NCBI GenBank assembly: GCA_016795505.1
Contig: JAEUHH010000116.1
Coordinates: 1 to 42,631 of the forward strand
Reading direction: 5' to 3'
Length of the DNA stretch: 42,631 bases
Source: Verrucomicrobiales bacterium
Lineage (GTDB): Bacteria > Verrucomicrobiota > Verrucomicrobiia > Verrucomicrobiales > DEV007
Of the stretch, positions 2,932 to 35,675 are shown one piece after another. A model generated the notes under the pieces. It was given only the letters and a program-made list of their open reading frames with translations, did no database searches and had not been told where the DNA came from. The position numbers and the translations under genes are program-made. Each line of letters starts with the position of its first letter. Position 1 is the first letter of the stretch.

Positions 2932-3056
2932 CGTCAGCAGGCAACGGCTGGCAGGGGTCGATCCTGACAAGCAACCGAACTGACGATTCTTTGCCCTTCG
3001 CCGATGGCCGACGGGTCATAATTGAACAAACCGCGCCCGGCGGAGACTCAAGCAGA

Positions 3057-6000: not shown

Positions 6001-6110
6001 TGGAGACCGAGCGCCGGGCCGCGGTCGAGATCACTGGTTACGACACCAGCGCCCGGATTTCCGGCGATACCAGCCGTGTGGTCGGCTACGCCGGCGCGGT
6101 ACTGGCTTGA
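3057..6110 (+). CDS. AmmeMemoRadiSam triple fusion: radical SAM enzyme - AMMECR1 - MEMO
   Basis: A 1017-residue protein that joins the three families that normally sit as separate neighbouring genes (AmmeMemoRadiSam system R, A and B). Residues 1-345 form the radical SAM enzyme: an N-terminal Cys cluster (C22, C25, C29, C39), the [4Fe-4S]-binding CNLGCKFC (C87, C91, C94) and a C-terminal CxxC pair (YCPGC, CTHCG). Residues about 375-580 are AMMECR1, with the hallmark LRGCIG at 426-431. About 580-745 is an unassigned segment. About 750-1017 is MEMO, with LPHAGW (H793), GPKHT (H823), EHGCEVLLPFL, SSDLNHF and SMCGLRP (C970), matching the His-His-Cys metal site of human MEMO1. The start at 3057 follows the stop-free region upstream and gives the usual N-terminus of the radical SAM part; it faces the DUF1592 gene across about 125 bp. 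The reaction and substrate of the bacterial system remain unknown. The last 25 bases overlap the end of the convergent MFS gene. Confidence 0.93.
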   Translation: MSAPLQEPKTKWWHAEGDRLVCDLCPRECRLGEGQRGFCFVRQNVDGRMVLTTYGRSTGFCIDPIEKKPLNHFLPGTPVLSFGTAGCNLGCKFCQNWDISKSREIEILSQQASPEAIVQTAKSHGCRSIAFTYNDPVIWAEYAIETAKIARAEGIKTVAVTAGYITPAARGEFFEWMDAANVDLKAFTDEFYRKQTFSRIDPVLDTLRWLKHETGVWFEITNLIIPGENDSPDETARLCDWVLEELGPDVPLHFTAFHPDFKLRDRGHTPHDTLIQARSLARERGLRHVYVGNVLDGERQSTYCPGCERVVIERDHYELGAYHIREGACTHCGTTIPGVFENEPGHWGRKRVPLSIREPERPASIASPTQPESVIDADARAFLLDHARHLVTAAVRGESPTESLPEPVASFPCHGLFVSLKRGHQLRGCIGHFQPDQARPISALLAQAAASVATRDVRFPPIQLDELPYLSIEVTPMHGFRDLDETGAARAGVIEIGRHGVILSQGDRRGLLLPQVAVEHGYDAAAFLRQVSLKAGLPPDAWLAPDSRLTVFEGEPFSAEPPRPEIDGSTLSREDFRAAAALAVASLSGATGEMRAPAILTRTVEHPLGVIIETGGRRAFALRAGASLAQLILDACQSLRSAPNQPDDAASEARLHLLSLPISLRPAHHPQRHAHVLRGAIVARAGDRFAIALPTSDTTADPIAEALRSVGISLDQWADSGAEVVAFQRHSVRFSLHSESSGDPGGIRPAAVAGRFYPGTADEMARALDSHFEKARAAYSGAPQPARAVLLPHAGWIYCGDLIAGALARVAVPELVVVIGPKHTPHGANWSVSSSDAWEIPGATIPVAREWADFLAARCPRLIRETAAHRAEHGCEVLLPFLHRCQPRLRIVPIAIGEAGYDDLASLAGALADLRAEWGDRVLLVISSDLNHFADEAENRRRDALALERFAAADPRGLYDRCRAEDISMCGLRPAVAVLRALETERRAAVEITGYDTSARISGDTSRVVGYAGAVLA

Positions 6111-11529: not shown

Positions 11530-11586
11530 TGATGCGGCGGAGACTCGGCTTTGCAGCGGGGGAGTTTTGGGATCGGAAGTCGACGC

Positions 11587-12213
11587 TCAGTGGCGGCAGC
11601 CGGGGCGATGGCGGTTGTCATTGAGGCCCTGCGAGATGGCCTGGAGGATCAGGCCGACGGCCTGCTCTTCGATCGACGGCTGGCGCACCACTTCGACGAC
11701 CCGCACCGGCTCCTGGACCACGATCACCTCGCGGTCGGTATGATGGTGATGCCGGTGATGCTGGGTGTAGGACTCCCAGACCGCATCGAAGCCGCGCCCG
11801 AAGCGGCAGGCCGCCTCGTGGGCTTCGGCAAAACGCTCGCGGGTGGGGTCCGAGATGCGCACTTCGCGGATCTCCGTGGTCACGCACGAAAACGCGCGCC
11901 GGGTGTCGGACCAGAGCAGCTCGATGTCCTCCAGGTCGCCGCCGCGCCGCACGGTGCAGGCGAGCTTCTCTGCCAGTTGGGAAAAGTCGGTCAAGGCCAG
12001 GAGGAGTTCGCGGTCGCATCCCCGGGCCGGGTAGGCATGGGAGTGGCGCAGGTCGCGGTCGAAGGAAGCCAGCAGGGCGGCGGCATCCTCCGAGAGGGTG
12101 TTCGACAGGCAGCGCAGGTCGGGCGCGTCGTCAGGATGTCCGGCAATCGCTTTGCCGGCCGGAACCGTCCACAGGGAGACGGCCAATACAGAGGCGTAAA
12201 CGTAGGCTTTCAT
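11587..12213 (-). CDS. Secreted His-rich, Cys-containing protein of unknown function
   Basis: A 208-residue exported protein with a signal peptide (MKAYVYASVLAVSLWTVPAGKAIAG). I do not recognise a family. The mature part is helical and charged, with several Cys residues spread along it (near residues 35, 65, 86, 110, 136 and 206), which in the periplasm could form disulfides. A short cluster HHRHHHH around residues 151-157 is followed by TDREVIVVQEPVRVVEVV, a low-complexity Val/Arg linker, and a C-terminus with GCRH. The His cluster suggests metal binding, which is inference. It is convergent with the AraC-type gene and divergent from the Rieske gene. Confidence 0.72.
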   Translation of the reverse strand: MKAYVYASVLAVSLWTVPAGKAIAGHPDDAPDLRCLSNTLSEDAAALLASFDRDLRHSHAYPARGCDRELLLALTDFSQLAEKLACTVRRGGDLEDIELLWSDTRRAFSCVTTEIREVRISDPTRERFAEAHEAACRFGRGFDAVWESYTQHHRHHHHTDREVIVVQEPVRVVEVVRQPSIEEQAVGLILQAISQGLNDNRHRPGCRH

Positions 12214-12570
12214 CGTGGGAGGGGAGGGGAGTGGAAATCGAGGCGACTGGCCTCACGGGAGAGACGGGCGCGGAAGTGCGCTTATGCAGGGCGACGTGAT
12301 GGCGGTCACGTTGACCTTTCCCTGGTAAATTGGGTGAATAGAGCCCCTCAGCCTTCGACCCCCTCGTACAACGCGGTGAGAGGCCGGGCGGCGTCGATTT
12401 CCGGCACGAAAATGATCGCGTTGCGCCCCGGGAAGACGGCCAAAAGTGGATCGGAAAACGTAGGCTGTCGTCGTGAGATGGGGAGGTCTTTCGGCCCTGT
12501 CGGTTCGGGGACCCTTGACGGATGGTTTACGGTGCCGGTCCCCAAAACCTTCACGCAATCACGCCACGAC
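12214..12570. promoter_or_regulatory. 357-bp divergent region upstream of the Rieske/cytochrome b genes
   Basis: No gene is supported here. On the plus strand TTGACC (12311-12316) and TGAATA (12335-12340), 18 bp apart, form a weak sigma70-like promoter. Closer to the Rieske start, GGGGACC (12507-12513) and GGTCCCC (12537-12543) can pair as a 7-bp stem around a 23-nt loop, leaving the ATG 27 bases further on, so it may be an mRNA leader structure. A GTGGATCGGAAAAC stretch near 12446 resembles part of the 22-bp repeat seen elsewhere. Confidence 0.35.
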
Positions 12571-13161
12571 ATGACGATGAACGCTGACGAAAAATCCGAA
12601 TCCGCCACCGACCCGCAGACAGGAGCGGGTGCCCGACGGGATTTCCTGCTCAAAGCCGGCTCCGTCTGTGCTGGCTGCGCCCTGGCCGGGGTGCCGGTGG
12701 CAGCCGGGCTGCGGGTGGTGACGCATCCCGTGACGGGTGGTGGCGCGGCGGCGGTCGGCGGCGAGGCGCCGTTTTTGCCGGTGACGACGCTGGACTCGCT
12801 GCCGGAGGACGGTTCGCCGGCGAAATTCATGATCCGGGCCGACAAATCCGACGCCTGGAGCCGGTTCCCCAATCAGGTCATCGGCGCGGCCTTTCTCCGC
12901 CGGGTCGGCGAGCGGGGCGTGCAGGCGTTCAACGTGGTCTGCCCCCATCTGGGTTGCGCGGTCGAATTCCGCGAGCCGAACCGCGACTACTTCTGCCCCT
13001 GCCACAACAGCGCCTTCGAGCTGGAATCGGGCACCCAGGAGGCCAACAGCCCCAGTGCGCGCGGGTTGGATTCGCTGGAAACGCAGGTCGACGACTCGGG
13101 CAATGTCCTGGTCCAGTTCCAGAATTTCGTGATGGGCATCAAGGAGAAGCGCCCCGTCTGA
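12571..13161 (+). CDS. Rieske [2Fe-2S] protein of a bc-type quinol oxidase complex
   Basis: A 196-residue membrane-anchored iron-sulfur subunit that passes electrons from quinol to a c-type heme. It has a Tat-like twin-arginine start (residues 22-26, RRDFL) followed by a hydrophobic anchor (GSVCAGCALAGVPVAAGL), as expected because Rieske proteins fold before export. The cluster motifs are CPHLGC (124-129) and CPCHNS (142-147): C124, H126, C142 and H145 would bind the cluster and C129 and C144 form the disulfide. The start at 12571 (MTMNADEK) was chosen because sequence upstream does not look like protein; 12577 is an alternative. It is followed after 55 bp by the cytochrome b gene, with which it forms the complex. 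Confidence 0.93.
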   Translation: MTMNADEKSESATDPQTGAGARRDFLLKAGSVCAGCALAGVPVAAGLRVVTHPVTGGGAAAVGGEAPFLPVTTLDSLPEDGSPAKFMIRADKSDAWSRFPNQVIGAAFLRRVGERGVQAFNVVCPHLGCAVEFREPNRDYFCPCHNSAFELESGTQEANSPSARGLDSLETQVDDSGNVLVQFQNFVMGIKEKRPV

Positions 13162-13216
13162 ATTCCGCCGATTTGTTCACACTTCCGTCGTCACCCGCCT
13201 CCCGCCCTCCGCTGCC

Positions 13217-15046
13217 GTGAAATTCCTGTTCGACTGGCTCGACCATCGCACCGGCTACCGCCGTCTCCTCGCCGAAGCCCTCAACGAGCCCGTCCCGGGC
13301 GGTGCCCGGTGGCGCTATGTGTGGGGCAGCACGCTGACCTTCGCGATTTTCGTCCAGTTCGTCACCGGCATCGTGCTGTGGTCGGCCTACAGCCCGAGTT
13401 CCCAGACAGCCTGGGAAAGCGTCTATTACATCGAGGAGGAAATGACCGGTGGCACCTGGCTGCGGGGCATCCACCACTACATGGCGCAGGTGATGACGGT
13501 GCTGCTGGTGCTGCACCTGATGCAGGTCGTCATCGATGGCGCCTACAAGGCCCCGCGGGAGCTGAATTTCCTGTTCGGCATGGGATTGCTCGGCCTGATC
13601 ATGGCACTGTCGCTCACCGGCTACCTGCTGCCCTGGGATCAAAAAGGCTACTGGGCGACGAAGGTGGCCACCAACCTGATCGGGGTGATCCCGGTGGTCG
13701 GGGAATCGCTCCAGCGCATCGTCGTGGGCGGGGCGGACTACGGCCACCACACGCTGACGCGGTTTTTTGCCCTCCATGCTGGTGTGCTCCCGGCACTGAC
13801 GGTGCTCCTCATCGTGGGACACGTCTATTTGTTCCGTCGGCACGGCCTCACCGCCAAACAACCGCTGAAAAAGCCCGAAGGCGGGCGCTTCTGGCCTGAC
13901 CAGATCTGGTGCGATGCCGTGGCCTGCCTCGCGGTGCTCGCATCGGTGCTGGTGCTGGTCGCCTGGCACGGCGGGGCGCCCCTGACGGCTCCGGCGGATG
14001 CCGCGGAGCGCTATCCGGCGCGGCCGGACTGGTATTTCATGTTCCTGTTCGAGTTCCTGAAATGGTTCCCGGGCGAGACGCTGATCTGGGGAGGGGTCAT
14101 CATCCCCTCGCTGGTCTTTCTGGGCCTCTGTGCCATGCCGGCGATCGCCAGTCGGCCCTGGGGCCACCGGGCCAACCTGTTTTTCCTCGCCACTCTGCTG
14201 GTCGGCTTTGCCGGTCTGACGGTGCTGGCCTACTGGAAGGACGCCCGCGACCCCGAGTTCCAGTTCGCCGTCGAGCAGGCCAACCGGGCCTCCGAGCGCG
14301 TCCGGGAGCTGGCCCATGCCCCCGCCGGCATCGCCCCGGTTGGCGCCGCAGAGCTGCTGCGCGACGATCCCTACATGCAGGGGCCGCGGTTGTTCGCCTC
14401 GAAGTGCGCCTCGTGCCACACCTACGACGGTCACGACGGACTCGGCCGGCCGCAGAAGGAGCCCTCGGCTCCCGACTTGAAGGGCATCGGCACCCGCGAA
14501 TGGCTGGCCGGTCTGCTCGATCCCGCCCAGATTGAGACGCCGAAGTACTTCTTCGGCACCAAGTTCGTCGAGCCCAACGAACAGGGCAAAAAGAGCCGCA
14601 TGGTCGAATTCGTCCACGATCTGTCGAATCTCAGCCCCGAGGGACGCGAGCAGCTCGACAAGATCATCGCGGTCGTGTCGGCCGAGGCTCATCTCACCAG
14701 TCAGGCACGGATCGATGCCCTGCTCGACGAGGATGACCGCGCCGAGGGGATCGACCTGTTTTTCTCCGGCATCGACGGCGTGTCGCAGGCCTGCGGCGAT
14801 TGCCACGGCTTCGATGGGGAGGAAAGCCAGGCCGCCCGCACGCCCGACCTGACCGGCTGGTCCTCGCGGCAATGGCTCATCGACTTCACCAAGAATCCGG
14901 AGCACGAGCGTTTTTACGGCAGTGGAAACGACCGCATGCCGGCCTTCGAGGAGGAAAGCCTGTTCACGGATCGCGAGATCGAGCTGGTCGTCGACTGGCT
15001 GCGCGAGGAATGGGTGCGCTACGAGCCGCCTGTCGAGGAAAAGTGA
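13217..15046 (+). CDS. Cytochrome b fused to a two-heme cytochrome c domain
   Basis: A 609-residue inner-membrane protein. Residues 1 to about 355 are a full-length cytochrome b including the subunit IV part: heme-ligand helices RGIHHYMAQVMTVLLVLH and FALHAGVLPALTVLLIVGH, the latter with 14 residues between its His ligands as in b6-type proteins, and RPDWYF in place of the PEWY quinol-site motif. After a hydrophobic helix, residues about 380-609 form a periplasmic tail with two heme c motifs, CASCH (397-401) and CGDCH (526-530). With the Rieske subunit this gives a two-gene complex that carries its own cytochrome c. Such b-c fusions are known in some Gram-positives and in Planctomycetes/Verrucomicrobia. 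The convergent trpC gene ends 18 bp after its stop. Confidence 0.93.
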   Translation: MKFLFDWLDHRTGYRRLLAEALNEPVPGGARWRYVWGSTLTFAIFVQFVTGIVLWSAYSPSSQTAWESVYYIEEEMTGGTWLRGIHHYMAQVMTVLLVLHLMQVVIDGAYKAPRELNFLFGMGLLGLIMALSLTGYLLPWDQKGYWATKVATNLIGVIPVVGESLQRIVVGGADYGHHTLTRFFALHAGVLPALTVLLIVGHVYLFRRHGLTAKQPLKKPEGGRFWPDQIWCDAVACLAVLASVLVLVAWHGGAPLTAPADAAERYPARPDWYFMFLFEFLKWFPGETLIWGGVIIPSLVFLGLCAMPAIASRPWGHRANLFFLATLLVGFAGLTVLAYWKDARDPEFQFAVEQANRASERVRELAHAPAGIAPVGAAELLRDDPYMQGPRLFASKCASCHTYDGHDGLGRPQKEPSAPDLKGIGTREWLAGLLDPAQIETPKYFFGTKFVEPNEQGKKSRMVEFVHDLSNLSPEGREQLDKIIAVVSAEAHLTSQARIDALLDEDDRAEGIDLFFSGIDGVSQACGDCHGFDGEESQAARTPDLTGWSSRQWLIDFTKNPEHERFYGSGNDRMPAFEEESLFTDREIELVVDWLREEWVRYEPPVEEK

Positions 15047-19643: not shown

Positions 19644-21632
19644 ATGACGACGACGACCGAGATGCCGCCCATCCCGACTCCACCGGTCCTTCCCGTCGAA
19701 GTCAGTGTCGAGCACCTGCTGGTCGCGGTCGACTTTCAGCGAGAAACGAAACGGGTGCTTCAGGCCGCCTTGCAACTGGCCGGAACCTTCGGGGCGCGGC
19801 TCACTCTGCTGCACGTGCTGGAGCCCGTCACCGACGATCCCGACATCGTCCTGCACTGGGGCGACTTTCCCAAAGAACGCCATGACCGTGCCCTGCGACG
19901 TCTCGAAAAGCTGACCGCGGAGACCCTCGGGGATCGACCGGCATCGCTCCAACTGGTGGAGGGCCGCGCCTACGAGGCGATCATCCGGGCCGCCGGTGAT
20001 TTGAATGCCGGGCTGCTGGTGATAGGCCGCCACAGTGAGGGGAGCCGCCTGCTCCACGACTGGCTGGGCGGCACCGCCGAGAAAGTGGCGCGACACGCCC
20101 CCTGTCCGGTCTATCTGGTGGGTGGCGAGTGGGACGAGCCGTCCACGCTGCCGCAGCGGCTCCTGCTGGGCACCGATTACACCGCGGAGTCGCTGCATGC
20201 CTTTCCCTGGGCTCTGACGCTGGCCCGCCGATTCGACGCCCCGGTGATCCTGGCGCACGTGGCCGAGCCACTGGGCCTGCCGGGGACGCTGGAGTATGAG
20301 CGCTTCGCCGAACAGATCGACGCCCTGCGGGCGGGGTGGTCCGACCAACTCGATGCCTTCCGCCAGGAACATCTGCCCGTGGACCTGCCCGTGGAGACCC
20401 GCATCGTGGAGGGCACGCCCGACCGGGCGCTGAGCCGGCTGGCGCGGCGGGAGCAGGCCGATCTCATCGTGATGGCGTCGCGCGGTCGCTCCGGGTGGCC
20501 ATCCTGGCTGGGTGGCACTGCAGAAGCCCTGCTCCGCGAAGCCCCGGGATCCGTCCTTCTCATTCCCCCGGGGCCCGGGTCCGAGCCGGCCGGCGAGGCG
20601 CCCGGAGATGCGGAATCGACTGCGGTGTCCCGTGGCAAGCCGGTCACCGCCACCCGCGCCGGCATCGACCTGTCGGCCCCGGTCTCCAGCCTGATGCGGC
20701 TGGATTTTCCCGCCATCGCCCACCAGGCCAGCATCGGGGAAGCGCTGAGCCAAATCCGGCAGTCCGGCGTGGGCGAGCGCCTCATCTATTTCTACGTGAT
20801 CGACTCCGAAGGCCGGCTCAAGGGAGTCCTCCCCACCCGGCGACTGCTCACCGCGCCCCTCGGCGATCCAGTCGGCTCCCACATGATCGTCAATGTCACC
20901 GTGTTGCGGCCCAATGAGACACTGCTGCATGCCTCCGACGTGTTCTCGCGGAACAAATTCCTCGCCCTGCCCGTGATCGACGACACCGGCGTGCTGGTCG
21001 GCGTGGTCGATGTGGGGCTGATGTCTGACCGCATCTTCGACCTCGCCGAGCGTGAACAGATTGAGGACATCTTCGAGACCATCGGCTTCAATGTTTCGCA
21101 GGTCCGCGATGCGTCGCCCCTGCGTGCCTTCCGCTTCCGGTTTCCCTGGTTGTTGGCCACCATCGCCAGCGGCACCCTGTGCGCGATGCTCGCCGGGGCC
21201 TTCGAGTTGACGCTGGCCAAAAGCATCGTGCTCGCGTTCTTCCTGACGCTCATCCTGGGACTCGGTGAGAGCGTCAGCATCCAGTCGATGACCGTCGCCA
21301 TCCAGGCCCTGCGGGGCATCACGCCGACCCTGCGGTGGTACTTCGGTGCGCTGCGGCGCGAGGTCTTCACCGCCTTTCTGCTGGGCGCCGGATGCGGCAC
21401 CATCGTGGCGGCGATCGTCTGGCTCTGGCAGGGCGAGCCACTCGTGGCGGTCAGCATCGGCGGTAGCATCGTGCTGGCGCTGGTGACCGCGTGCGTCAAC
21501 GGTCTCAGTATCCCCGCTCTGCTGCATGCCCTGAAACTGGACCCGAAGATCGCCGCCGGACCCGTCACCCTCGCCCTCACCGACATTTTCACGCTGCTCT
21601 TCTATTTTGGGATGGCATGGTGGCTGTTGTAG
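19644..21632 (+). CDS. Usp-Usp-CBS-MgtE fusion (divalent cation channel with stress domains)
   Basis: A 662-residue protein with an unusual order. Residues about 22-160 and 170-310 are two universal stress protein domains; the second has an ATP-type loop, ASRGRSGWPSWLGGTAE, and the first IGRHSEGSRLLHDWLGGTAE. Residues about 345-470 look like two CBS repeats (FYVIDSEGRLKGVLPTRRLL and LALPVIDDTGVLVGVVDVGL), and about 495-662 are the five-helix MgtE channel with DPKIAAGPVTLALTDI near the end, the conserved MgtE segment. The normal MgtE N domain is absent, its place taken by the Usp pair. MgtE channels carry Mg2+ (and sometimes Co2+) and are gated by Mg2+ on the N and CBS domains, so gating here may be coupled to nucleotide or stress state. 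The usual GGNAGxQ-like helix-2 segment is altered (LGESVSIQS). It begins the ion-transport block and is followed by the P-type ATPase. Confidence 0.9.
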   Translation: MTTTTEMPPIPTPPVLPVEVSVEHLLVAVDFQRETKRVLQAALQLAGTFGARLTLLHVLEPVTDDPDIVLHWGDFPKERHDRALRRLEKLTAETLGDRPASLQLVEGRAYEAIIRAAGDLNAGLLVIGRHSEGSRLLHDWLGGTAEKVARHAPCPVYLVGGEWDEPSTLPQRLLLGTDYTAESLHAFPWALTLARRFDAPVILAHVAEPLGLPGTLEYERFAEQIDALRAGWSDQLDAFRQEHLPVDLPVETRIVEGTPDRALSRLARREQADLIVMASRGRSGWPSWLGGTAEALLREAPGSVLLIPPGPGSEPAGEAPGDAESTAVSRGKPVTATRAGIDLSAPVSSLMRLDFPAIAHQASIGEALSQIRQSGVGERLIYFYVIDSEGRLKGVLPTRRLLTAPLGDPVGSHMIVNVTVLRPNETLLHASDVFSRNKFLALPVIDDTGVLVGVVDVGLMSDRIFDLAEREQIEDIFETIGFNVSQVRDASPLRAFRFRFPWLLATIASGTLCAMLAGAFELTLAKSIVLAFFLTLILGLGESVSIQSMTVAIQALRGITPTLRWYFGALRREVFTAFLLGAGCGTIVAAIVWLWQGEPLVAVSIGGSIVLALVTACVNGLSIPALLHALKLDPKIAAGPVTLALTDIFTLLFYFGMAWWLL

Positions 21633-21743
21633 CCCTCCGATGGGCGTTTGTTGTCTGTCGCTGGTCGTATCCTGTCGCAAAGCGCGGGAGCGGGGTTGCG
21701 GTGTCACCGCCGGCCTGTCACGCTGAGGGCGCCTCCCGCCTCC

Positions 21744-24491
21744 ATGAAAACCACCGACCCGTCAGACTCCGCCGAAGCCGCCGCCCGCTGGCATCATCTT
21801 GAAACCGCCGAAGTCACCCGCCTGCTCGGTTCCGATCCCGCCCGCGGATTGGATGAGGCGGAAGCCGCCACGAGGCTGCGCCACTACGGACCCAATGTCG
21901 TCACCGGTCGACGCGGCACGCCGGCGTGGCGGCGATTCCTGCTCCAGTTCCACCAGCCCCTCGTCTATATCCTGCTCGCGGCATCCGGCGTCACCGCCTT
22001 TCTCCATGAGTGGGTGGACAGCGGCGTCATTTTCGGCGTCGTCTTCATCAATGCCATCATCGGCTATCTCCAGGAAAGCAAGGCCGAGCGCGCCATCGAC
22101 GCCCTGAGCCGGCTCGTGCTCACCGAGGCCACTGTCAGACGCGGCGGGCGCAAGCGGCGCATCCCCTCGGCCGAACTCGTGCCCGGCGACGTGGTGCTCC
22201 TGCAATCCGGCGACCGCGTGCCCGCCGATCTCCGGCTCTTCGACGTGCGCAACCTTCACTGCGACGAGTCGGCCCTCACCGGCGAATCGTTGCCTGTCGC
22301 CAAGCACACCGATCCGCTCGACCACGACATCGCCCTCGCGGATCGCAAAAACCAGGCCTACGCCGGCACCCTCGTCACCGCCGGACAGGCCGAGGGCCTC
22401 GTCTGGGCCACCGGGGACAAGACGGAGACCGGCCGCATCGCCTGGCTCATCTCCGAAGCCGTCGAGATCTCCACGCCTCTTACCCGCAAGATCGCCCAGT
22501 TCAGCCGGCTCCTGCTCTGGGTCATCGTCGGGCTCGCCGCGCTGACCTTTGCCGTCGGCGTCGGTCGCGGTGAACCGGCCGTCGACATGTTCATGGCCGC
22601 CGTCGCCCTCGCCGTCGGCGCCATCCCAGAGGGCCTGCCCGCCGCGGTGACGATCGTGCTCGCCATCGGTGTCAGCCGCATGGCCAAAAGGCGGGCCATC
22701 ATCCGCAAGCTGCCCGCCGTCGAGACGCTCGGGAGCACCACCGTGATCTGCTCCGATAAAACCGGCACCCTGACCGAGAACCAGATGACCGTGCAGGAAA
22801 TCCGCGCCGGCGGCCGGATCTATACGGTCACCGGCGGCGGCTATGACCCGAAAGGAGCGATTCTCGAAGAGGGAGCCAAAGACCCTGTCGATCCCGACCG
22901 GCATCCCGCGCTGGTGGAGTGCCTTCGCGCCGGTGTCCTGTGCAACGACTCCCAACTCGTCATCGAGGAAGGCCGCCACGCCGTCCAGGGCGACCCCACC
23001 GAGGCTGCCCTGCTCGTGGCCGGTGCCAAAGCCGGCCTCATCCACGCCGAGACCCAGGACGCCGCCCCGCGGATCGACATGATCCCTTTCGAGTCCGACC
23101 ACATGTTCCGCGCCACCCTGCACGGCGGCACCGGCAGCGACCGCGTCATCTACAAGGTCGGAGCCGTGGAGCGACTGCTCGACCGGTGCGACGATGCCCT
23201 CGGGGCGGATGGCCTGCCGACCATGCTTGACCGCGATGCCATCCGCGCCGACGTCGAGGCGATGGCCTCGCGCGGCCTGCGTGTGCTCGCCTTTGCCCGC
23301 CGCCATCCCGGTCCCGGCCAGGACCGGCTCGGGCACGAGCACGTCCGCGCAGGGCTGACCTTTTTGGGATTGCAGGGCATGATCGATCCGCCCCGCGCCG
23401 AGGCCGTCGCTGCCGTCGCCAGTTGCCGGCGCGCTGGTATTGCGGTGAAAATGATCACCGGCGACCACGCCGTCACCGCCCGGGTCATCGCCGGCCGCAT
23501 CGGGCTCGCCGACGAGACCGACTTGCGGGCCATCACCGGACTGGAACTCGAAAAAGTCGCCGATGCCGACCTGCCCGACGTGGCCGAAGCCACCGGAGTC
23601 TTCGCCCGCGTCGCCCCCGAGCAAAAGCTGCGACTCGTCCGCGCTCTGCAATCGCGCGGCCATGTCGTCGCCATGACCGGAGACGGCGTCAATGACGCAC
23701 CCGCGTTGAAACAGGCCGACATCGGGGTCGCCATGGGCATCTCCGGCACCGACGTCGCCAAGGGCGCTGCCTCCATGGTCCTCACCGACGACAACTTCGC
23801 CAGCATCGAAGCCGCCGTCGAGGAGGGGCGCGGTGTGTTCGACAACCTGCGGAAATTCATCGTCTGGACCCTGCCCACCAACCTGGGTGAAGGCGGCATC
23901 ATCCTCGTGGCCATCCTCCTCGGTCTCACCCTGCCGGTCGTGCCCGTCCAGTTGCTCTGGGTCAACATGACCACCGCCATCTTCCTCGGGCTGATGCTCG
24001 TCTTCGAGCCCAAGGAATCCGGCCTCATGGACCGGCCGCCCCGCGATCCCCGGCTGCCCCTGCTGACCTTCCAGCTCATCATGCGCACGGGCCTCGTGTC
24101 GCTCATCATCATCGGAGGCTCCTTCTGGCTTTTCCATCACGAACTCAGCCGCCACGGGGAGACCACTGCCGAGGCCCGCACCGCCGTGGTCAACACCATC
24201 GTCATGGTCGAGACCGCCTATCTGTTCAGTTGCCGTTCGCTCAACCGGTCGCTTTTCTCCATCGGCCTGTTCACCAATCGGCTGGCCATCCTCGGGGCGC
24301 TGGGGATGATCACGGCGCAGCTGGCTTTCACCTATGCACCGGTGATGAACCGCCTGTTCCACTCCACGCCGCTCGAAGCCTCCGCCTGGGCGCGCATCAC
24401 GGCGGTGGCGGTCCTTTCCTTCTTCGCCGTGGAACTGGAAAAGTGGATCCGCTTCGGCGGCGGCCGCGGCAGCGACCGGCCTCCCGAGTGA
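21744..24491 (+). CDS. P-type cation-transporting ATPase (type II, Ca2+-ATPase-like)
   Basis: A 915-residue ATP-driven ion pump. It has the N-terminal cation-ATPase domain (GLDEAEAATRLRHYGPN), the actuator region with DESALTGESLPV, the PEGLPAAVT segment of helix 4, the phosphorylated Asp in CSDKTGTLTENQMT (D338), and the hinge MTGDGVNDAPALKQADIGVA. The C-terminal half has six more membrane helices, with VNMTTAIFLGLMLVFEPKE in helix 6, as in the CtpF/PacL-like group, so Ca2+ or a related divalent ion is the likely substrate, though Na+ or K+ cannot be ruled out. The ATG at 21744 was chosen as the first Met before the ATPase domain; an earlier in-frame Met would add 32 unlikely residues. It lies in a same-strand block with MgtE, Usp and Mrp genes. 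Confidence 0.92.
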   Translation: MKTTDPSDSAEAAARWHHLETAEVTRLLGSDPARGLDEAEAATRLRHYGPNVVTGRRGTPAWRRFLLQFHQPLVYILLAASGVTAFLHEWVDSGVIFGVVFINAIIGYLQESKAERAIDALSRLVLTEATVRRGGRKRRIPSAELVPGDVVLLQSGDRVPADLRLFDVRNLHCDESALTGESLPVAKHTDPLDHDIALADRKNQAYAGTLVTAGQAEGLVWATGDKTETGRIAWLISEAVEISTPLTRKIAQFSRLLLWVIVGLAALTFAVGVGRGEPAVDMFMAAVALAVGAIPEGLPAAVTIVLAIGVSRMAKRRAIIRKLPAVETLGSTTVICSDKTGTLTENQMTVQEIRAGGRIYTVTGGGYDPKGAILEEGAKDPVDPDRHPALVECLRAGVLCNDSQLVIEEGRHAVQGDPTEAALLVAGAKAGLIHAETQDAAPRIDMIPFESDHMFRATLHGGTGSDRVIYKVGAVERLLDRCDDALGADGLPTMLDRDAIRADVEAMASRGLRVLAFARRHPGPGQDRLGHEHVRAGLTFLGLQGMIDPPRAEAVAAVASCRRAGIAVKMITGDHAVTARVIAGRIGLADETDLRAITGLELEKVADADLPDVAEATGVFARVAPEQKLRLVRALQSRGHVVAMTGDGVNDAPALKQADIGVAMGISGTDVAKGAASMVLTDDNFASIEAAVEEGRGVFDNLRKFIVWTLPTNLGEGGIILVAILLGLTLPVVPVQLLWVNMTTAIFLGLMLVFEPKESGLMDRPPRDPRLPLLTFQLIMRTGLVSLIIIGGSFWLFHHELSRHGETTAEARTAVVNTIVMVETAYLFSCRSLNRSLFSIGLFTNRLAILGALGMITAQLAFTYAPVMNRLFHSTPLEASAWARITAVAVLSFFAVELEKWIRFGGGRGSDRPPE

Positions 24492-24617: not shown

Positions 24618-25538
24618 ATGAATCGCTTTAAAAAAATCCTCTTCGTGCACGCCGACGCAAAAGCGTCCGGAGATGCCCTGCGCGAGTCGATGCGCCTCGC
24701 CGTGGCCAATGGAGCGGATCTTGCCGCGCTGAGCGTCTCCAAACCGCTTCCCGGATCGGGTTCTCTGCGCGAGGCCCTGATCAATTACCGGCGTCAGGAG
24801 ATCGACCAAGTCCGGCGGTCGTTGCCTGAGGCCCGGGATCTGTCGGTGTCTTTCGAGCACGTCGAGGGTGTACCCTATGTGGAGATCGTCAAAACCGTAA
24901 TCCGCGACAACCGGGATCTGGTGGTCAAAGCGGCCGAAAAGTCGTTGCGAGGCCATCGGCGCGGCTTTTCCTCCGGGGATCTCCAGTTGCTGCGGCAGTG
25001 TCCCTGTGCCGTATGGATGTTCAAATCGACCAAGCCGTCGTCGGTGGGGCGGCGGGTCATGGCCGCCATCGACCCTCGCGATGATGGCAGTGACGATACC
25101 CTGACCCGACGAGTTCTGGAGATCGGCACAAGCCTCGCAAATATGGCGGGGACCGAATCATGCCTCCATGTGGTGCATTGCTGGGAGCTTCCTTTTGAGA
25201 CCATGCTCCGCCACCACCCGTTTCTCAAGCGAAGCAGCGATGAGATGTCCCGGTTGTCGGAGAAAGTGGAGGATTCCCATCGCGCCACGGTGGCGGCCGC
25301 TCTGGCATCAGTCGAAGGTTGCAATGCGGCAGAGACCCTCATCGAGAAAGGCGATCCGGCTACGGCGATACCCCGCCTGGCTCGCGAGCGTGCCGCGGAT
25401 GTGGTCGTGATGGGCACTTTGGGACGATCCGGCATTCCAGGACATTTCATTGGGAATACGGCAGAGACGATTCTCTCCGAGGTGCCTTGCTCTGTTCTTG
25501 CGATCAAGCCCCCCGGCTTTCGCAGTGCTCTCGGTTGA
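24618..25538 (+). CDS. Two-domain universal stress protein (UspE-like)
   Basis: A 306-residue cytosolic protein made of two Usp domains: about 1-140 (MNRFKKILFVHADAKASG to CPCAVWMFK) and about 145-300 (RRVMAAIDPRDDGS to CSVLAIK). The C-terminal one keeps the nucleotide-binding pattern GTLGRSGIPGHFIGNTAE, with Asn where Ser or Thr is usual; the N-terminal one has lost it, with KAAEKSLRGHRRGFSSGDLQ at that place. Tandem Usp proteins such as UspE act in stress survival and redox responses. It lies between the P-type ATPase and the Mrp operon, in keeping with a stress role for the cluster; the 22-bp repeat precedes it. Confidence 0.88.
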   Translation: MNRFKKILFVHADAKASGDALRESMRLAVANGADLAALSVSKPLPGSGSLREALINYRRQEIDQVRRSLPEARDLSVSFEHVEGVPYVEIVKTVIRDNRDLVVKAAEKSLRGHRRGFSSGDLQLLRQCPCAVWMFKSTKPSSVGRRVMAAIDPRDDGSDDTLTRRVLEIGTSLANMAGTESCLHVVHCWELPFETMLRHHPFLKRSSDEMSRLSEKVEDSHRATVAAALASVEGCNAAETLIEKGDPATAIPRLARERAADVVVMGTLGRSGIPGHFIGNTAETILSEVPCSVLAIKPPGFRSALG

Positions 25539-30913: not shown

Positions 30914-31208
30914 TTTCTTTTCAGCCCTGCTCTTGTGCGGTGCCGGCTTCTTCGCCTTTGTGGCCGGGGTGGGACTCGTGCGTTTTCGTGACTTGCCGTG
31001 TCGGATGCATGCCGCAACCAAAACGGCTGGAGCGGCGTTCGCCCTGGTTCTCGCCTCCATGATCTTGAGGGTTCCTGACTGGGGCACCCTCTTGAAGGCG
31101 TTCGTCGCTCTCGGGTTCGCCTTTCTCACCCTGCCCGTCGCCGCCCACCTCTTGGGCAGAGGCGGAGCTGGCGACAATCAAGCCGATGCCTCGGGCGAGG
31201 ACTCGTAG
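30906..31208 (+). CDS. mrpG: Mrp Na+/H+ antiporter subunit G
   Basis: A 100-residue subunit with three helices and the diagnostic GLVRFRDLPCRMHAATKTA (VRxxDxxxRxHAxTK). The ATG at 30906 lies in the 8-base overlap with mrpF. The C-terminus is hydrophilic and acidic (ADASGEDS). It closes the operon; no terminator hairpin is clear before ldhA, which starts 98 bp later. Confidence 0.93.
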   Translation: MNDFFSALLLCGAGFFAFVAGVGLVRFRDLPCRMHAATKTAGAAFALVLASMILRVPDWGTLLKAFVALGFAFLTLPVAAHLLGRGGAGDNQADASGEDS

Positions 31209-31306
31209 TGGTCGGCTGGCTCCTGGCGGCATTGCCACCGCAGGACGTTGCGGCGCTACTACCCTGGCCCTACTCTTTTCAGAAGACCCATTCGACACTG
31301 CCAAAG

Positions 31307-32308
31307 ATGATGACCGCCTCCTTCTACGACACCAAACCCTACGACCGCGAACACCTGCTGGCGGCTCCCGGAGCCGACCGGGTGGCGTGGCGCTTCCATG
31401 AGTTCCGGTTGAATGCCGAGACCGCGGCCACGGCGGCGGGTGCCGATTCCGTCTGTGCCTTCGTCAACGACGCGCTCGACCGCCCCTGCCTCGAAGTCCT
31501 CGCCGCCCATGGCGTGCGCCATGTCGCGCTGCGGTGCGCCGGTTTCAACAACGTCGATCTGGCTGCTGCCGACGCGTGCGGCATCGCGATCACCCGCGTG
31601 CCCGCCTACTCCCCGCATGCCGTGGCCGAGCACACCGTGGCGTTGCTGCTCACTCTGAACCGCCGCATCCACCGGGCGCACAACCGGGTGCGGGAATTCA
31701 ACTTCTCCCTCGCGGGCTTGGTCGGCTTCGACCTGCATGGCAAGACCGTCGGCATCGTCGGCACCGGCAAGATCGGCCGGTGCGCGGCCGCGATCTTCCG
31801 CGGCTTCGGCTGCCGGGTCGTGGCCCACGATCCCTATCCGGACGACATCTGGGCGGCGGAATGTGGCATCGCCTACCTGCCGCTCCCGGATCTGCTGGAA
31901 GCCGCCGATGTGGTTTCACTGCACCTGCCCCTGACGCCGGAAAGCCACCACCTGCTCGACACCGCCACGCTCAATCGGATGAAGCCCGGGGCCTACCTGA
32001 TCAACACGAGCCGGGGCAAGCTCATCGACACCGGCGCCCTGCTCGACTGCCTCAAGTCGGGTCGCCTCGGCGGAGTCTGTCTCGACGTTTACGAGGAGGA
32101 GGAGGGCATTTTTTTCGAGGATCACTCGGACCGCGGTCTCGACGACGATGATCTCGCCCGGCTGCTTGGATTTCCCAATGTGCTGGTCACGTCGCACCAG
32201 GCTTTCCTCACCCGCGAGGCCCTGGGGGAGATCGCCCGCGTCACGGTGGGCAACATCCTCGCCGCCGCCCGGCGGGATTGGCTGCCGGGCACGCTGTTGA
32301 CGACCTGA
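31307..32308 (+). CDS. ldhA: D-lactate dehydrogenase (D-2-hydroxyacid dehydrogenase)
   Basis: A 333-residue NAD-dependent enzyme that reduces pyruvate to D-lactate. It begins MMTASFYDTKPYDREHL, the usual LdhA N-terminus, which is why the ATG at 31307 was preferred over the in-frame GTG at 31208 inside mrpG. Cofactor site VGIVGTGKIGRCAAAIFRGF; catalytic Arg in NTSRGKLIDTGAL, Glu in LDVYEEEEGIFFED, His in TSHQAFLT. It lies downstream of the Mrp operon on the same strand, so a shared response to acid or fermentative stress is possible, but that is inference. Confidence 0.92.
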   Translation: MMTASFYDTKPYDREHLLAAPGADRVAWRFHEFRLNAETAATAAGADSVCAFVNDALDRPCLEVLAAHGVRHVALRCAGFNNVDLAAADACGIAITRVPAYSPHAVAEHTVALLLTLNRRIHRAHNRVREFNFSLAGLVGFDLHGKTVGIVGTGKIGRCAAAIFRGFGCRVVAHDPYPDDIWAAECGIAYLPLPDLLEAADVVSLHLPLTPESHHLLDTATLNRMKPGAYLINTSRGKLIDTGALLDCLKSGRLGGVCLDVYEEEEGIFFEDHSDRGLDDDDLARLLGFPNVLVTSHQAFLTREALGEIARVTVGNILAAARRDWLPGTLLTT

Positions 32309-32313
32309 ATCGT

Positions 32314-32883
32314 CTAGGGCCGGCTCTGGGCGGGCGTTCGGCAATGGCGGAAAATCGCGATCGCGGCGATCAGGGAGACCGCAGTGAGGCCTGCCTGCAT
32401 GGATCGCTCGGCGACGAAGCCCTGCGGTTGCAGTTGGGACTCGACTGCGGAGCCGGCGATGGCGAGGAGCAGCAGGTCCGACCACAGCAGCTTGAACCGC
32501 AACATTTTCCCCGCCGGCCACATGCCATGGATGAGCAAGCCGGCAAACGCGGCCAGGAGGACGAGCATCGCCGCCACCCAGCCGAGGGGAATGTCGCCGA
32601 TTTTCACCACCCAGTCGTTGGAGTAGCCCGCGATCGCGAGGATGAGTGCCTCTCCGACGCGCCCGGCGGCCACGACGCGGCGCGATACCGGGGCGCCTGG
32701 CAACAACGCGGCGCGTTCGGCCCGTCGATGGGCCACCAGAGCGATCGCGGCTCCCAACCAGATGGCCATGGCAGCAGGCCGGGACTCGGCCGCGCTGGCG
32801 AAATAGAGGCAGACGGAGCAGACCAGCGCGGAACCGAAAATCGCCGCCAGAGAGACGCGGATGGCAGGAATGGAGGGAGACAT
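32314..32883 (-). CDS. Membrane protein of unknown function
   Basis: A 189-residue protein with about five hydrophobic segments (IRVSLAAIFGSALVCSVCLY, MAIWLGAAIALVAHR, VGEALILAIAGYS, GWVAAMLVLLAAFAGLLIHG, LLWSDLLLLAIAGSAVES). I do not recognise it. The stretch RRVVAAGRVGEALILAIAGYS faintly recalls the region after the catalytic motif of CDP-alcohol phosphatidyltransferases, but the DGxxARxxxxxxxxGxxxDxxxD motif is absent. It is the last gene of a minus-strand run and is 54 bp after the preceding gene. Its end lies 5 bp from the convergent ldhA stop. Confidence 0.65.
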   Translation of the reverse strand: MSPSIPAIRVSLAAIFGSALVCSVCLYFASAAESRPAAMAIWLGAAIALVAHRRAERAALLPGAPVSRRVVAAGRVGEALILAIAGYSNDWVVKIGDIPLGWVAAMLVLLAAFAGLLIHGMWPAGKMLRFKLLWSDLLLLAIAGSAVESQLQPQGFVAERSMQAGLTAVSLIAAIAIFRHCRTPAQSRP

Positions 32884-32937
32884 GGCCTCAATGTGCCGCG
32901 GAACGGCGCGGGAGCAATTCGCTCGGCCGAGGCGCGA

Positions 32938-33579
32938 TCACACCAGAGACAAGCGGGGCTGCCGGTCCGGCGCGCACTCGACGCCGACCGGTCGGAGAAA
33001 GGTCTCCACGGACAGCCGGTAGGTGTCCCGGCCATCGGCCTGCACAGCAAAGACCCGTTCAGGCGACACTGCCTGCCGGAGACCCCGCACCGCGCCGACA
33101 AACTCGATCCGCGAGTCGAATTCGCGCTGCCCCAGGGGGTCCCAGCAGTCGTTGACATAGACCGGCACGGTCTCGCTGAAAATGTCGATGCGCACGATGG
33201 CAAACAGGGCACTCAGACCGGTCTCCAGGGCACAACCGAGCCGTGGATCGAGCCGGAATGACCGATCCGCATCCTCCCGCAGTGCGGCGGGCGGATCGAG
33301 GTCCGCGTGGAGTCGTTGCAACTCGTAGTTATCCGGCGCGACGGCTTCCGGTCTCAGGTAAATCGGAAAGGGATCGCCTGTCCCTCCCCGGCCGGGGTGG
33401 GCGGTGAGGAGCAGGCCGCGGGCACTGATGCGGGTCTGCGGCGTCTCGCTTTCCAGCCGCAGCAGCCCGTCGACCAGTTGGCAGGTCAGACTTTTCCCGA
33501 GCACCGCCCGCAGCACGGACAGGGTGTCCTCGTCGAGTCGGCCGAGATCGGCGGGTAATTCGCAGGCGTCGGAATCCAT
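32938..33579 (-). CDS. Hypothetical protein (213 aa)
   Basis: I do not recognise this protein. It begins MDSDACELPADLGRLDED, has no membrane segment, and contains a hydrophobic core pattern such as FAIVRIDIFSETVPVYVNDCW and RVFAVQADGRDTYRLSVETF, suggesting a beta-rich soluble fold. The start at 33579 was used because the longer open frame to 33852 would only overlap the CBM-like gene in another frame. It lies 61 bp after that gene on the same strand and is probably co-transcribed with it. Confidence 0.6.
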   Translation of the reverse strand: MDSDACELPADLGRLDEDTLSVLRAVLGKSLTCQLVDGLLRLESETPQTRISARGLLLTAHPGRGGTGDPFPIYLRPEAVAPDNYELQRLHADLDPPAALREDADRSFRLDPRLGCALETGLSALFAIVRIDIFSETVPVYVNDCWDPLGQREFDSRIEFVGAVRGLRQAVSPERVFAVQADGRDTYRLSVETFLRPVGVECAPDRQPRLSLV

Positions 33580-33640: not shown

Positions 33641-34213
33641 TCATCGGTCCCGGGACGGCCCCAGTTCCACGAGTTCCAATTCGTCGAACCAGGCGACTCC
33701 CGCGGCCATGCTGGAATTGTGTCCCAGCCGTGGACCGATCTTGATCTCCTGCAAGGGGCCTGTCTCGAACTCCAGCTCGACCTTCTTCCACCGTTGATCG
33801 CCCGTGATGGACTCCGTTTTCTCGAACCCGCCGAACAGCGAGAGGGTCGCACCCGTGCCCTTCACCTGCACGTCTTTCGTCATGATGTAGCCGGTCAGGC
33901 GGTAGCGGGTCTTCGGCTTCACGGGGACGGTCTGGGTGAGAAAGCTGTCATCGCCACCGGCTGGATTCTCGATGCGGATGCTGGAGCGTCCTTCGCGATG
34001 CACCTCATTGTCGACCGACACCTGGCCCTTTTTGTTCCAGGAGGAAAAATCCCAACCCTGTTGTCCTTCCTCGAACGAGGCATTCTTCAGGATGTTGGGA
34101 CGGCCCTGCTGGGCGGTCAGGATGCCGGCTGCCAGAACCGGCAGCGACAGGGAGAGGATGACGGAGCGAAAGCCGGAGGACTTCGTGCGGACGGCGCGTC
34201 GGGCGGTTTTCAT
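33641..34213 (-). CDS. Secreted carbohydrate-binding-like protein (CBM_4_9 type)
   Basis: A 190-residue exported protein. A basic N-terminus and hydrophobic segment (GFRSVILSLSLPVLAAGIL) form the signal, and the mature part is a beta-sandwich module: ILKNASFEEGQQGWDFSSW is the typical entry of CBM4/9-like domains, followed by SIRIENPAGGDDSFLTQTV, YRLTGYIMTKDV and GVAWFDELELVEL at the end. Such modules bind glycans, here probably on the cell surface or in the periplasm; no catalytic domain is attached. The ATG at 34213 has AAGG 5 nt upstream; an in-frame ATG at 34231 is also possible. It lies 58 bp after the DUF1501 gene. Confidence 0.75.
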   Translation of the reverse strand: MKTARRAVRTKSSGFRSVILSLSLPVLAAGILTAQQGRPNILKNASFEEGQQGWDFSSWNKKGQVSVDNEVHREGRSSIRIENPAGGDDSFLTQTVPVKPKTRYRLTGYIMTKDVQVKGTGATLSLFGGFEKTESITGDQRWKKVELEFETGPLQEIKIGPRLGHNSSMAAGVAWFDELELVELGPSRDR

Positions 34214-34271
34214 AACCACCTTTTTACCCATAGGTGACGGACGAGTCAACCGCGGATTCCGGGCGGACCCG

Positions 34272-35675
34272 TCACGCCACAATCTCCTTCGCCACCTCGC
34301 CATAGACATCGGTGAGGCGGAAGTCGCGACCGGCGTAGCGGTAGGTCAGCCGGGTGTGATCGAGCCCGAGCAGGTGCAGGATGGTGGCGTGAAGGTCGTG
34401 GGTGCCGATCTTTCCTGCGACCGCGGTGCCGCCCAGTTCGTCGGTGGCGCCGTGGCGGAGACCGCCTTTCACGCCGCCGCCGGCCATCCACATGGAGTAG
34501 CCGCGATTGTTGTGCCGCCGGCCGTCGCCGCCGTTGGCCTGATCCTGGGGACTCCGCCCGAACTCGCCACCCCAGAGGACAAGAGTGTCCCGCAGCAGGT
34601 CGCGGTCCTTGAGATCCTGGAGCAGCGCGGCGATGGGACGGTCGATGCCGGCGCAGTTCCGGGTCAGAGCCGATTTCAGATTGTTATGCTGGTCCCAGCC
34701 GCCCTTGCTGACCTGGATGAAGCGCACGCCGGACTCGGCGAGACGCCGCGCCATCAGGCACTGGGTGCCGAACTCCCGCGTCTCCTCGTTGTCCAGTCCG
34801 TAGCGCTCGCGGGTGGCGGGCTCTTCGGCCTCGAGGTCCAGCACGGCGGGCACCGAGGTCTGCATCCGGTAGGCCAGCTCGAAGGACTGGATCACCCCGT
34901 CGAGTTCGGGATTGCCGGGATGTTTCCCGAGCAGGTCGCGGTTCATTTCCTGGATCAGGTCGATCTGGGCACGCTGGCGACCTTCCGCGAGGTGGCGATT
35001 CCGGATGTCGGGGATGCCGCCCTCGCCCAGATCGACGCGGGTGCCCTGGTAGGAGGCCGGCAGGAAGGACGATCCATAGTTTTGGGCTCCGCCGCCTCCG
35101 ACCGGGTTGATGGTGATGAATCCGGGCAGGTCCTGATTGGCCGAGCCGAGTCCGTAGGTGATCCACGAGCCCATCGAGGGCCGCACGAAATTGATGCTGC
35201 CGGTGTGGAGGGCGATGGTCGCCTGCGGATGAGCCGCGTTCGAGGTGTGCATCCCGTTCAGCAGGCAGAGGTCGTCGGCATGGCGGCTCAGCTCGGGAAA
35301 CAGCTCGCTGATGGGTAGCCCGCTCTCGCCCTGCGGGGCAAAGGCGAACTGTGGCGCGAGCAGCTTGCCTCCCCGGCCGCCGGCGGCATCTCCGGAGGCG
35401 GTTTTTCCTCCGTTGGCCATCAGGTCGGGCTTCCAGTCGAAGGTATCGAGATGACTCGGCCCGCCCTGCATGAACAGAAAGATGACCCGCTTCGCTTTGG
35501 CCGGAAAATGGGGCGCTTTTGGCTGGAGCGGCGATTGATAGGCACCGCCTCCGGTCGCGGCGCGAGCGGTCCCGGCATTCAGCGCGGCAAAAGCCAGCCA
35601 GCCGAAGCCGGCGGCGGTGTGTTGCAGCATTCCGCGGCGGGTGAGGGGAGTGTAGGTGTCGCGACAGGTCTTCAT
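34272..35675 (-). CDS. DUF1501 protein (sulfatase-like), Tat-exported
   Basis: A 467-residue protein of the DUF1501 family, which shares the alkaline phosphatase/sulfatase fold. The N-terminus TPLTRRGMLQHTAAGFGWLA has a twin-arginine pattern, typical of this family. Further segments: VIFLFMQGGPSHLDTFDWKP (metal-site Asp/His), GSWITYGLGSANQDLPGFI, RRLAESGVRFIQVSKGGWD and DTLVLWGGEFGRSP, followed by HNNRGYSMWMAGGGVKGG and GTHDLHATILHLLGLDH. ATG at 35675 was chosen because it begins just after the stop of the upstream gene; an earlier Met would overlap it. DUF1501 and DUF1549/1553 genes are nearly always paired in Planctomycetes and Verrucomicrobia, and their joint role is still not shown. Confidence 0.92.
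   Translation of the reverse strand: MKTCRDTYTPLTRRGMLQHTAAGFGWLAFAALNAGTARAATGGGAYQSPLQPKAPHFPAKAKRVIFLFMQGGPSHLDTFDWKPDLMANGGKTASGDAAGGRGGKLLAPQFAFAPQGESGLPISELFPELSRHADDLCLLNGMHTSNAAHPQATIALHTGSINFVRPSMGSWITYGLGSANQDLPGFITINPVGGGGAQNYGSSFLPASYQGTRVDLGEGGIPDIRNRHLAEGRQRAQIDLIQEMNRDLLGKHPGNPELDGVIQSFELAYRMQTSVPAVLDLEAEEPATRERYGLDNEETREFGTQCLMARRLAESGVRFIQVSKGGWDQHNNLKSALTRNCAGIDRPIAALLQDLKDRDLLRDTLVLWGGEFGRSPQDQANGGDGRRHNNRGYSMWMAGGGVKGGLRHGATDELGGTAVAGKIGTHDLHATILHLLGLDHTRLTYRYAGRDFRLTDVYGEVAKEIVA

Follow-up and report, generated by a model that had tools for sequence, protein, structure and literature searches.

A universal stress domain pair fused to a sensor-less MgtE-type protein with a divergent pore in a Verrucomicrobiales bacterium

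The window analyzed here is a 42,631-nucleotide stretch, contig JAEUHH010000116.1 of assembly GCA_016795505.1, from a Verrucomicrobiales bacterium. It carries a gene that joins two universal stress protein (Usp) domains, a CBS pair and an MgtE membrane domain in one protein, whose residue numbers are used throughout; positions in Thermus thermophilus MgtE (TtMgtE) are marked Tt. MgtE is a well-studied channel that is closed by its own ion, and Usp domains have a molecular role that is often unclear. The fusion is genuine and uncommon, and its protein falls within a subfamily, named ESV here after its pore motif, that has no MgtE_N sensor domain. The best explanation, which we favor tentatively and consider possible, is that the protein is a divalent-cation channel or transporter that has escaped feedback by Mg2+, with its opening tied to nucleotide or energy state. 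This explanation is put forward because of the domain content, the missing MgtE_N domain, the charge change at Tt D226, the tandem Usp fold with its invariant contact positions, the purifying selection, the Usp neighbors and the precedents described below. The parts of the gene are as follows.

19644..21632, + strand: Usp-Usp-CBS-CBS-MgtE fusion gene, 662 residues (open reading frame, Pfam; same architecture at three other loci, L031-L033)
19710..20123, + strand: Usp domain 1, residues 23-160 (PF00582 over 23-159; tandem Usp fold)
20025..20075, + strand: nucleotide-loop region of Usp domain 1, G128-T144, degenerate (alignment; predicted local distance difference test score, pLDDT, below 50 at 131-142)
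20151..20570, + strand: Usp domain 2, residues 170-309 (second Pfam Usp stretch; fold match)
20475..20519, + strand: nucleotide-loop region of Usp domain 2, A278-T292, degenerate (alignment; pLDDT below 50 at 281-291)
20571..20669, + strand: fast-evolving linker, residues 310-342 (23-27% identity to L031/L033; pLDDT below 50 at 314-341)
20670..21023, + strand: CBS pair, about residues 343-460 (Pfam, alignment, fold match over 343-464)
21036..21080, + strand: plug-helix equivalent, helix 465-479, low model confidence (alignment, model)
21111..21629, + strand: MgtE membrane domain, residues 490-662 (PF01769 over 535-656; fold match over 526-662)
21258..21287, + strand: pore motif GLGESVSIQS, residues 539-548 (E542 at Tt Gly328; alignment)
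21540..21584, + strand: DPKIAAGPVTLALTD, residues 633-647 (D633 = Tt D418, K635 = A420, G639 = N424, L643 = A428, D647 = D432)

The gene is a single reading frame from an ATG at 19644 to a stop codon ending at 21632, exactly where an earlier note on this DNA had placed it, and a longer start was ruled out because just one codon (663 in total) precedes the ATG in the open frame. The Pfam scan bore out that note's two Usp domains ahead of the CBS and channel parts: Usp (PF00582) scored 172 bits over two stretches, CBS (PF00571) 53 bits over two stretches ahead of the membrane domain, and the MgtE membrane domain (PF01769) 71.2 bits, above the cut-off of 27.6. The same scan of the fusion protein gave no match to MgtE_N (PF03448) and so revealed no hidden normal N domain. 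The note had described the N domain as replaced by the Usp domains; its absence holds, while its replacement is not supported, since relatives that have no Usp domains also lack MgtE_N. A separate Usp gene or a frame error was ruled out by the single open reading frame, by the same fusion in three other assemblies with no intervening stop, and by purifying selection. With the NCBIfam mgtE equivalog model (TIGR00400) the protein scored 168.9 bits, under the cut-off of 232.75. A sequence search of solved structures matched TtMgtE over residues 348-661 (E value 1.1e-33) and Usp proteins over segments of residues 23-313. MgtE_N itself was matched at two other places of this genome, at 63 bits in an MgtE on contig C111 and at 25 bits, below the cut-off, on C116. 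The latter lies in a third, divergent MgtE, a 419-residue frame with an SGNTGSQ pore (G000:C116 8203-9333, L030).

An AlphaFold2 model of the fusion protein, built from 30 sequences, had a mean pLDDT of 76.5 and a predicted template modeling (pTM) score of 0.49. Residues 19-313 formed a tandem Usp fold (Z 24.8 to YdaA), residues 343-464 a CBS fold (Z 16.6 to 2yvy) and residues 526-662 the MgtE membrane fold (Z 17.6 to 4u9l). The Usp loops, the linker at 314-341 and residues 462-481 had pLDDT values below 50, and the packing of the parts is therefore not given by the model.

To place the protein among its relatives, genome contigs were scanned with the retrieval peptides AFRFRFPW and ESVSIQSM, which gave 151 stretches and 119 relatives, with 80 loci kept. 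Three of these are fused (L031-L033; Verrucomicrobiaceae and Prosthecobacter), and the other 77 are short CBS-MgtE proteins of 325-445 residues that have no fused Usp pair. The ESV locus labels include Verrucomicrobiota, Lentisphaerota, Planctomycetota, Acidobacteriota, Thermodesulfobacteriota, Myxococcota, Ignavibacteriota, Bacteroidota, Omnitrophota and Pseudomonadota. The sites of TtMgtE were mapped onto 81 ESV rows (77 short, three fused and the window protein) and onto a control of 24 distinct ordinary MgtE proteins of the phylum, drawn from 30 loci that also held two ESV members, one truncated sequence without a pore (L168) and three duplicates of a neighbor's frame.

The departure of the pore from the usual MgtE motif, seen in the earlier note, proved to be a property of the whole subfamily. 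Glutamate stands at the Tt Gly328 position in 81/81 ESV rows and in none of the 24 ordinary proteins, all of which have glycine. This count is partly built in because ESVSIQSM was a retrieval peptide; among the 29 of 80 loci that do not contain it and were reached through the other peptide, glutamate was found in 29/29. Three further positions separated the two sets, namely lysine at Tt Ala420 (79/81 versus 0/24), leucine at Tt Ala428 (81/81 versus 0/24) and serine at Tt Asn329 (80/81 versus 0/24). Lysine or arginine at Tt Asp226 was present in 81/81 ESV rows and in 1/28 controls (arginine, in the truncated L168 only). The hallmarks at Tt 226, 420 and 428 played no part in retrieval. Asp432, Asp418, Gln333, Glu359 and Arg285 are conserved in all rows of both sets (81/81 and 24/24), and Asp432, the Mg1 site of the pore, is D647 in the fusion protein.

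In TtMgtE, Gly328 is reported to be strictly conserved and the G328A change to abolish complementation, and the cytoplasmic gate is formed by N332 and N424 (PMC8104411). ESV rows have mostly isoleucine or methionine at Tt N332 and glycine at Tt N424. Given these residues at Tt 328, 332 and 424, either the pore works differently or there are compensating changes; Lys635 is a candidate partner of Glu542. Two further candidate hallmarks were dropped: glycine at Tt 424 is not distinctive, and the change from aspartate to arginine at Tt D188 of the CBS pair falls at a position where ordinary MgtE proteins of the phylum also vary.

The closure of TtMgtE by Mg2+ has been attributed to a set of sites that are all required, with Mg4, Mg5 and Mg7 exerting their effect via the N domain; Mg4 (D91/D247), Mg6 (D95) and Mg7 (E59) involve residues of the N domain, and Mg5 (D226/D250) joins the CBS domain to the plug helix (PMC5882242). 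Because ESV proteins have no MgtE_N, and thus no D91, D95 or E59, the Mg4, Mg6 and Mg7 sites cannot form. Together with the reversed charge at D226, where the fusion protein has K438, the missing N domain means that feedback of the TtMgtE type cannot work as described. The plug-helix equivalent retains D466, E474 and D475 (Tt D250, E258 and D259), and the D250 position is aspartate or glutamate in 71/81 ESV rows. The Mg2/Mg3 residues E258 and D259, kept in the window protein, are acidic in many ESV rows, so some Mg2+ sensing may remain. Lys438 facing Asp466 may form a fixed salt bridge in place of the Mg5 ion bridge.

The CBS pair of TtMgtE binds ATP through Y170, R187, D188, N203, V207 and F227, and ATP modulates the channel (PMC5529423). 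This was overlooked in the earlier note, which had set nucleotide or stress gating of the fusion apart from gating only by Mg2+. Y382, R399, R400, K438 and F439 are the equivalents of Tt Y170, R187, D188, D226 and F227. The tyrosine, the first arginine and the phenylalanine of the ATP site are thus kept in the window protein, while D188 is replaced by arginine and N203 by isoleucine. Across the ESV rows, the Y170 and R187 equivalents are present in 81/81, phenylalanine or tyrosine at F227 in 74/81 and arginine at D188 in 75/81.

The consensus of the Usp ATP signature is G-2x-G-9x-G-(S/T), and neither Usp domain of the window protein satisfies it. Domain 1 reads G128-RH-S131-10x-G142-G143-T144 (G-x2-S-x10-G-G-T). 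Domain 2, to which the earlier note had assigned an ATP-type loop, does not have a clean signature either, reading A278-SR-G281-8x-G290-G291-T292 (A-x2-G-x8-G-G-T). Domain 1 of the three orthologous fusions has G-x2-G-x10-G-S, a spacing shared with the first domain of TTHA0350, whose structure was solved with ATP. In the Usp pair, the positions of the contact residues Asp, Val and Thr (D30/V58, D178/V206 and T144/T292) are invariant in 4/4 fusions. Nucleotide binding by the Usp pair is plausible on these residues, and nucleotide gating is still plausible because the tandem Usp protein TTHA0350 is reported to bind ATP even at its degenerate second site (PMC3673472).

The distribution of the fusion was surveyed in 189 sampled genomes of the order (E value 1e-30; best six candidates per genome scored). 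Twelve of them matched, and the full-length fusion was found in the window and in three others, 65-69% identical to the window protein and all in another family (f4, genus g21); these (G105, G102 and G082) were taken to be the same three fusions as L031-L033, because the contigs have equal lengths. In the genus of the window itself, the three members listed gave no match among the best six candidates per genome. A search with the subfamily alignment at strict limits (E values of 1e-60 and 1e-70) gave members in 10/387 Verrucomicrobiota genomes and in 10/297 genomes from the phylum that includes G531. Leaving aside the window and a run-on in G199, the frames of those members had 327-435 residues, which cannot accommodate a Usp pair in addition to the core. 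The 839-residue frame of G199, a candidate second fusion type, was rejected because by eye it is a run-on of letters that do not resemble protein before an ordinary short protein. Among the short relatives, neither Usp nor MgtE_N was found by Pfam in 10 of the 11 frames of 360 residues or more (L061 left out), and the remaining 66 frames had 325-352 residues.

A quick tree placed the four fusions in one clade with a support of 100. Since 77/80 relatives are short without Usp and ten long frames have no MgtE_N, the economical reading is that the N domain was lost first and that a single clade subsequently acquired the Usp pair. Identity between the window protein and L031 was 57% in Usp domain 1, 63% in Usp domain 2, 23% in the linker, 77% in the CBS pair and 84% in the membrane domain. 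In the same comparison the nonsynonymous rate (dN) was well under the synonymous rate (dS) in all five parts, with dN 0.35 and dS 1.33 for Usp domain 1 and dN 0.28 and dS 1.15 for Usp domain 2; judged by these codon rates, both Usp domains evolve under purifying selection. No relative was found in viral contigs with search patterns taken from the Usp part only. A 76%-identical C-terminal remnant of the fusion with an internal stop lies beside a 72%-identical P-type ATPase at G041:C48:33674-33937 (L019; L026), and this decayed copy suggests that the fusion was lost within genus g21.

Three other genes of the window figure in the comparison of gene neighborhoods.

21648..24491, + strand: P-type ATPase, nearest to Ca2+ (PMR1/SERCA) types, below cut-offs (next gene; the true start may lie inside)
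24618..25538, + strand: separate tandem Usp protein (UspE-like), 306 residues (Pfam, NCBIfam)
31208..32308, + strand: D-2-hydroxyacid dehydrogenase (73-75% identical homologue near the fusion in L020, L021 and L022)

The fusion is thus followed on the same strand by genes for a P-type ATPase, a tandem Usp protein and an Mrp-type antiporter. A 72-73% identical ATPase homologue adjoins the fusion in L020 and L021; in L022 the start of a 66% identical ATPase lies about 8.7 kb away at the end of the stretch, and separate Usp genes are also present. Usp, CBS and P-type ATPase genes have been reported together in low-oxygen responses elsewhere, the ATPases named being copper types (PMC11841059, PMC3759415). 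FNR-type oxygen boxes in the window gave no signal (7 sites versus 6.6 expected).

A Usp gene also adjoins unfused ESV genes at three loci, upstream at L078 (117 bp) and L090 (72 bp) and downstream at L088 (44 bp). A protein search of 72,556 plasmid records returned seven matches, none covering 80% of the query. In three of the records, megaplasmids of Nitratidesulfovibrio vulgaris, the match covers residues 349-662 only, and in the two examined a gene for a universal stress protein begins 37 bp downstream of the ESV gene (L179:5968-7921, NZ_CP116248.1 67767-69720; also L180, NC_017311.1). One Usp stretch of that protein passes Pfam, and nitrogenase-type genes precede the ESV gene. In two quick trees, the second of them computed without the outgroup, L090 belongs to an Acidobacteriota group, N. 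vulgaris and L088 share a group with Desulfobacteraceae, and L078 stands by itself. Gene adjacency in these four organisms is suggestive of a link between Usp and ESV proteins. In a gene-finder count covering 74/77 short loci (three were lost by the gene finder), Usp made up 2/138 adjacent genes versus 1/486 other genes (Fisher p 0.12); when L088 was added by hand, the count became 3/138 (p 0.036). No neighborhood conserved for the whole subfamily was seen among 88 loci; the largest neighbor clusters (8-9/88 loci), judged by eye, were sensor kinases, ABC-type ATPases and arginine-biosynthesis genes. At L127:6731-9164 the ESV gene lies 66 bp after an ABC-type ATPase that by eye resembles CbiO, itself preceded by a membrane protein resembling CbiQ, neighbors that could hint at another metal.

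In the explanation that we favor, a subfamily of the MgtE fold without the MgtE_N sensor would have gained a tandem, UspE-type Usp module upstream of its CBS pair, and cytosolic Mg2+ would no longer close the pore in the manner of TtMgtE. The Usp module and the CBS pair would read an adenine nucleotide (ATP versus ADP/AMP, or possibly cyclic di-AMP), and the signal would reach the pore by way of the CBS pair and the plug helix; ion flow might thereby track energy state or stress. Several observations speak against it. The ATP signatures are degenerate in both Usp domains, whose loops are poorly modeled, and the domain arrangement is not predicted at a pTM of 0.49. The CBS contacts D188 and N203 are changed, although D188 varies in ordinary MgtE too and D188A behaved like wild type in a TtMgtE protease test (PMC5529423). 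The Usp adjacency is weak, with most ESV loci examined having no Usp gene nearby, and the loss of complementation by G328A in TtMgtE also counts against the explanation.

The degenerate signatures speak for an alternative in which the Usp pair is a scaffold or dimerization module that holds the dimer or recruits partners without sensing, leaving the channel essentially unregulated or regulated by the CBS pair alone. The 77/80 kept relatives without a fused Usp pair and the low conservation of Usp domain 1 and the linker, the least conserved parts of the protein, also fit this alternative. We regard it as somewhat unlikely. Against it, the adenine-side Asp and Val and the threonine of the GxT motif are invariant in 4/4 fusions, both Usp domains are under purifying selection, and ATP binding at a degenerate site has a precedent in TTHA0350 (PMC3673472). 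The pore raises a different possibility, which we consider unlikely, that ESV proteins are not Mg2+ channels: Glu542 with Asp647 and Lys635 would give a different ion, or a different direction or coupling of transport (Ca2+, Mn2+, Co2+/Ni2+ or exchange being examples), and under stress the fusion would serve that ion. The subfamily-specific residues at Tt 328, 420 and 428, the loss of complementation with alanine at Gly328 (PMC8104411), the score below the TIGR00400 cut-off, and a P-type ATPase of the Ca2+ kind in 4/4 fusion neighborhoods (adjacent in the window, L020 and L021) point this way. However, D432, D418, Q333, E359 and R285 are kept in both sets, and the ATPase link was seen only at the loci of the fusions. 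It is very improbable that cyclic di-AMP (c-di-AMP), bound by the CBS or Usp domains, is the signal rather than ATP/ADP, with cation flux tied to osmotic and potassium control. The genome does encode a diadenylate cyclase domain, the Usp domain of KdpD is reported to bind c-di-AMP (PMC4686210), and the CBS fold matched c-di-AMP-bound DarB and OpuCA; these were two among many matches with many ligands, and the sole monovalent-cation system among the scanned window genes is the downstream Mrp-type antiporter.

A broader proposal, about which we are doubtful, is that ESV proteins form a separate functional class of MgtE-fold transporter, in which the Mg2+ sensor and the essential pore glycine would have given way to a pore of Glu, Lys and Asp and to a fixed lock formed by a salt bridge. 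Such transporters would be run by stress-nucleotide sensing, with Usp acting in trans from a neighboring gene in some bacteria and in cis in the fusion.

Among known systems, TtMgtE (2yvx, 2zy9, 5x9h) shares the CBS pair, plug helix, membrane domain, Asp432 and Asp418 with the fusion, at 28-30% identity over about 343-662. The fusion differs in having no MgtE_N, two upstream Usp domains, and Glu at Gly328, Gly at Asn424, Leu at Ala428, Thr at Gly435 and Lys at Asp226. Short ESV proteins, such as N. vulgaris WP_011176584.1 (annotated 'magnesium transporter'), have the same or a close pore motif and 46-66% identity over the same region, but they have no Usp domain in the chain, and in N. vulgaris the Usp protein is encoded separately. 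The tandem Usp proteins UspE/YdaA, Rv2623 and TTHA0350 match the fold (Z 24.8 to 21.7) and share the nucleotide-site residues Asp, Val and Thr; they are stand-alone proteins, whereas the Usp pair of the fusion is membrane-linked, with degenerate glycine loops in both domains. The C-terminal Usp-like domain of KCC/NKCC/NCC likewise regulates an ion transporter from the cytosolic side (Z about 15 over 17-312), and in KCC1 it is reported to bind ATP/ADP (PMC8280820), but the transporter fold is different, the domain is C-terminal and identity is 10-15%.

A Usp-transporter fusion as such is not new, because published work already describes chloride channels, Na+/H+ antiporters and amino acid permeases that carry a fused pair of Usp domains (PMC8509486). 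Those proteins also combine two Usp domains and a membrane transport domain in one chain, but with other transport folds; in the parts of that paper covered here, MgtE is not named and a CBS pair is not mentioned. Literature searches that covered few subscription journals gave no Usp-MgtE protein among the matches listed for Usp with MgtE or transporters, and no ESV subfamily among those listed for MgtE subfamilies or N-domain loss. Term searches of the review PMC9276622, within the parts covered, gave no mention of the MgtE N domain, Gly328 or universal stress.

The added interest of the present fusion is that it sits in a pore-divergent, sensor-less subfamily. A natural subfamily without the sensor, and with glutamate where alanine kills TtMgtE, offers a ready test of gating and selectivity in the MgtE fold, and the fusion suggests which signal may have replaced Mg2+ feedback. 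The gene pair of culturable N. vulgaris makes the idea testable outside uncultured Verrucomicrobiota. If true, it would give Usp domains a concrete role in channel control.

Other genes of the window, all on the forward strand, were also inspected. For three long downstream frames (32278-33261, 33936-35318 and 36295-38253), neither Pfam nor NCBIfam gave a hit within the thresholds applied. A 1066-residue frame at 2910-6110 unites Radical SAM, AMMECR1 and Memo domains, which are often encoded by separate genes belonging to a single system. At 11551-15046, a 536-residue protein whose C-terminal part matches Rieske at 25 bits (cut-off 20.3) is followed by a 609-residue frame that by eye resembles cytochrome b and has two cytochrome c heme motifs in its C-terminal half, an unusual layout for a bc complex.

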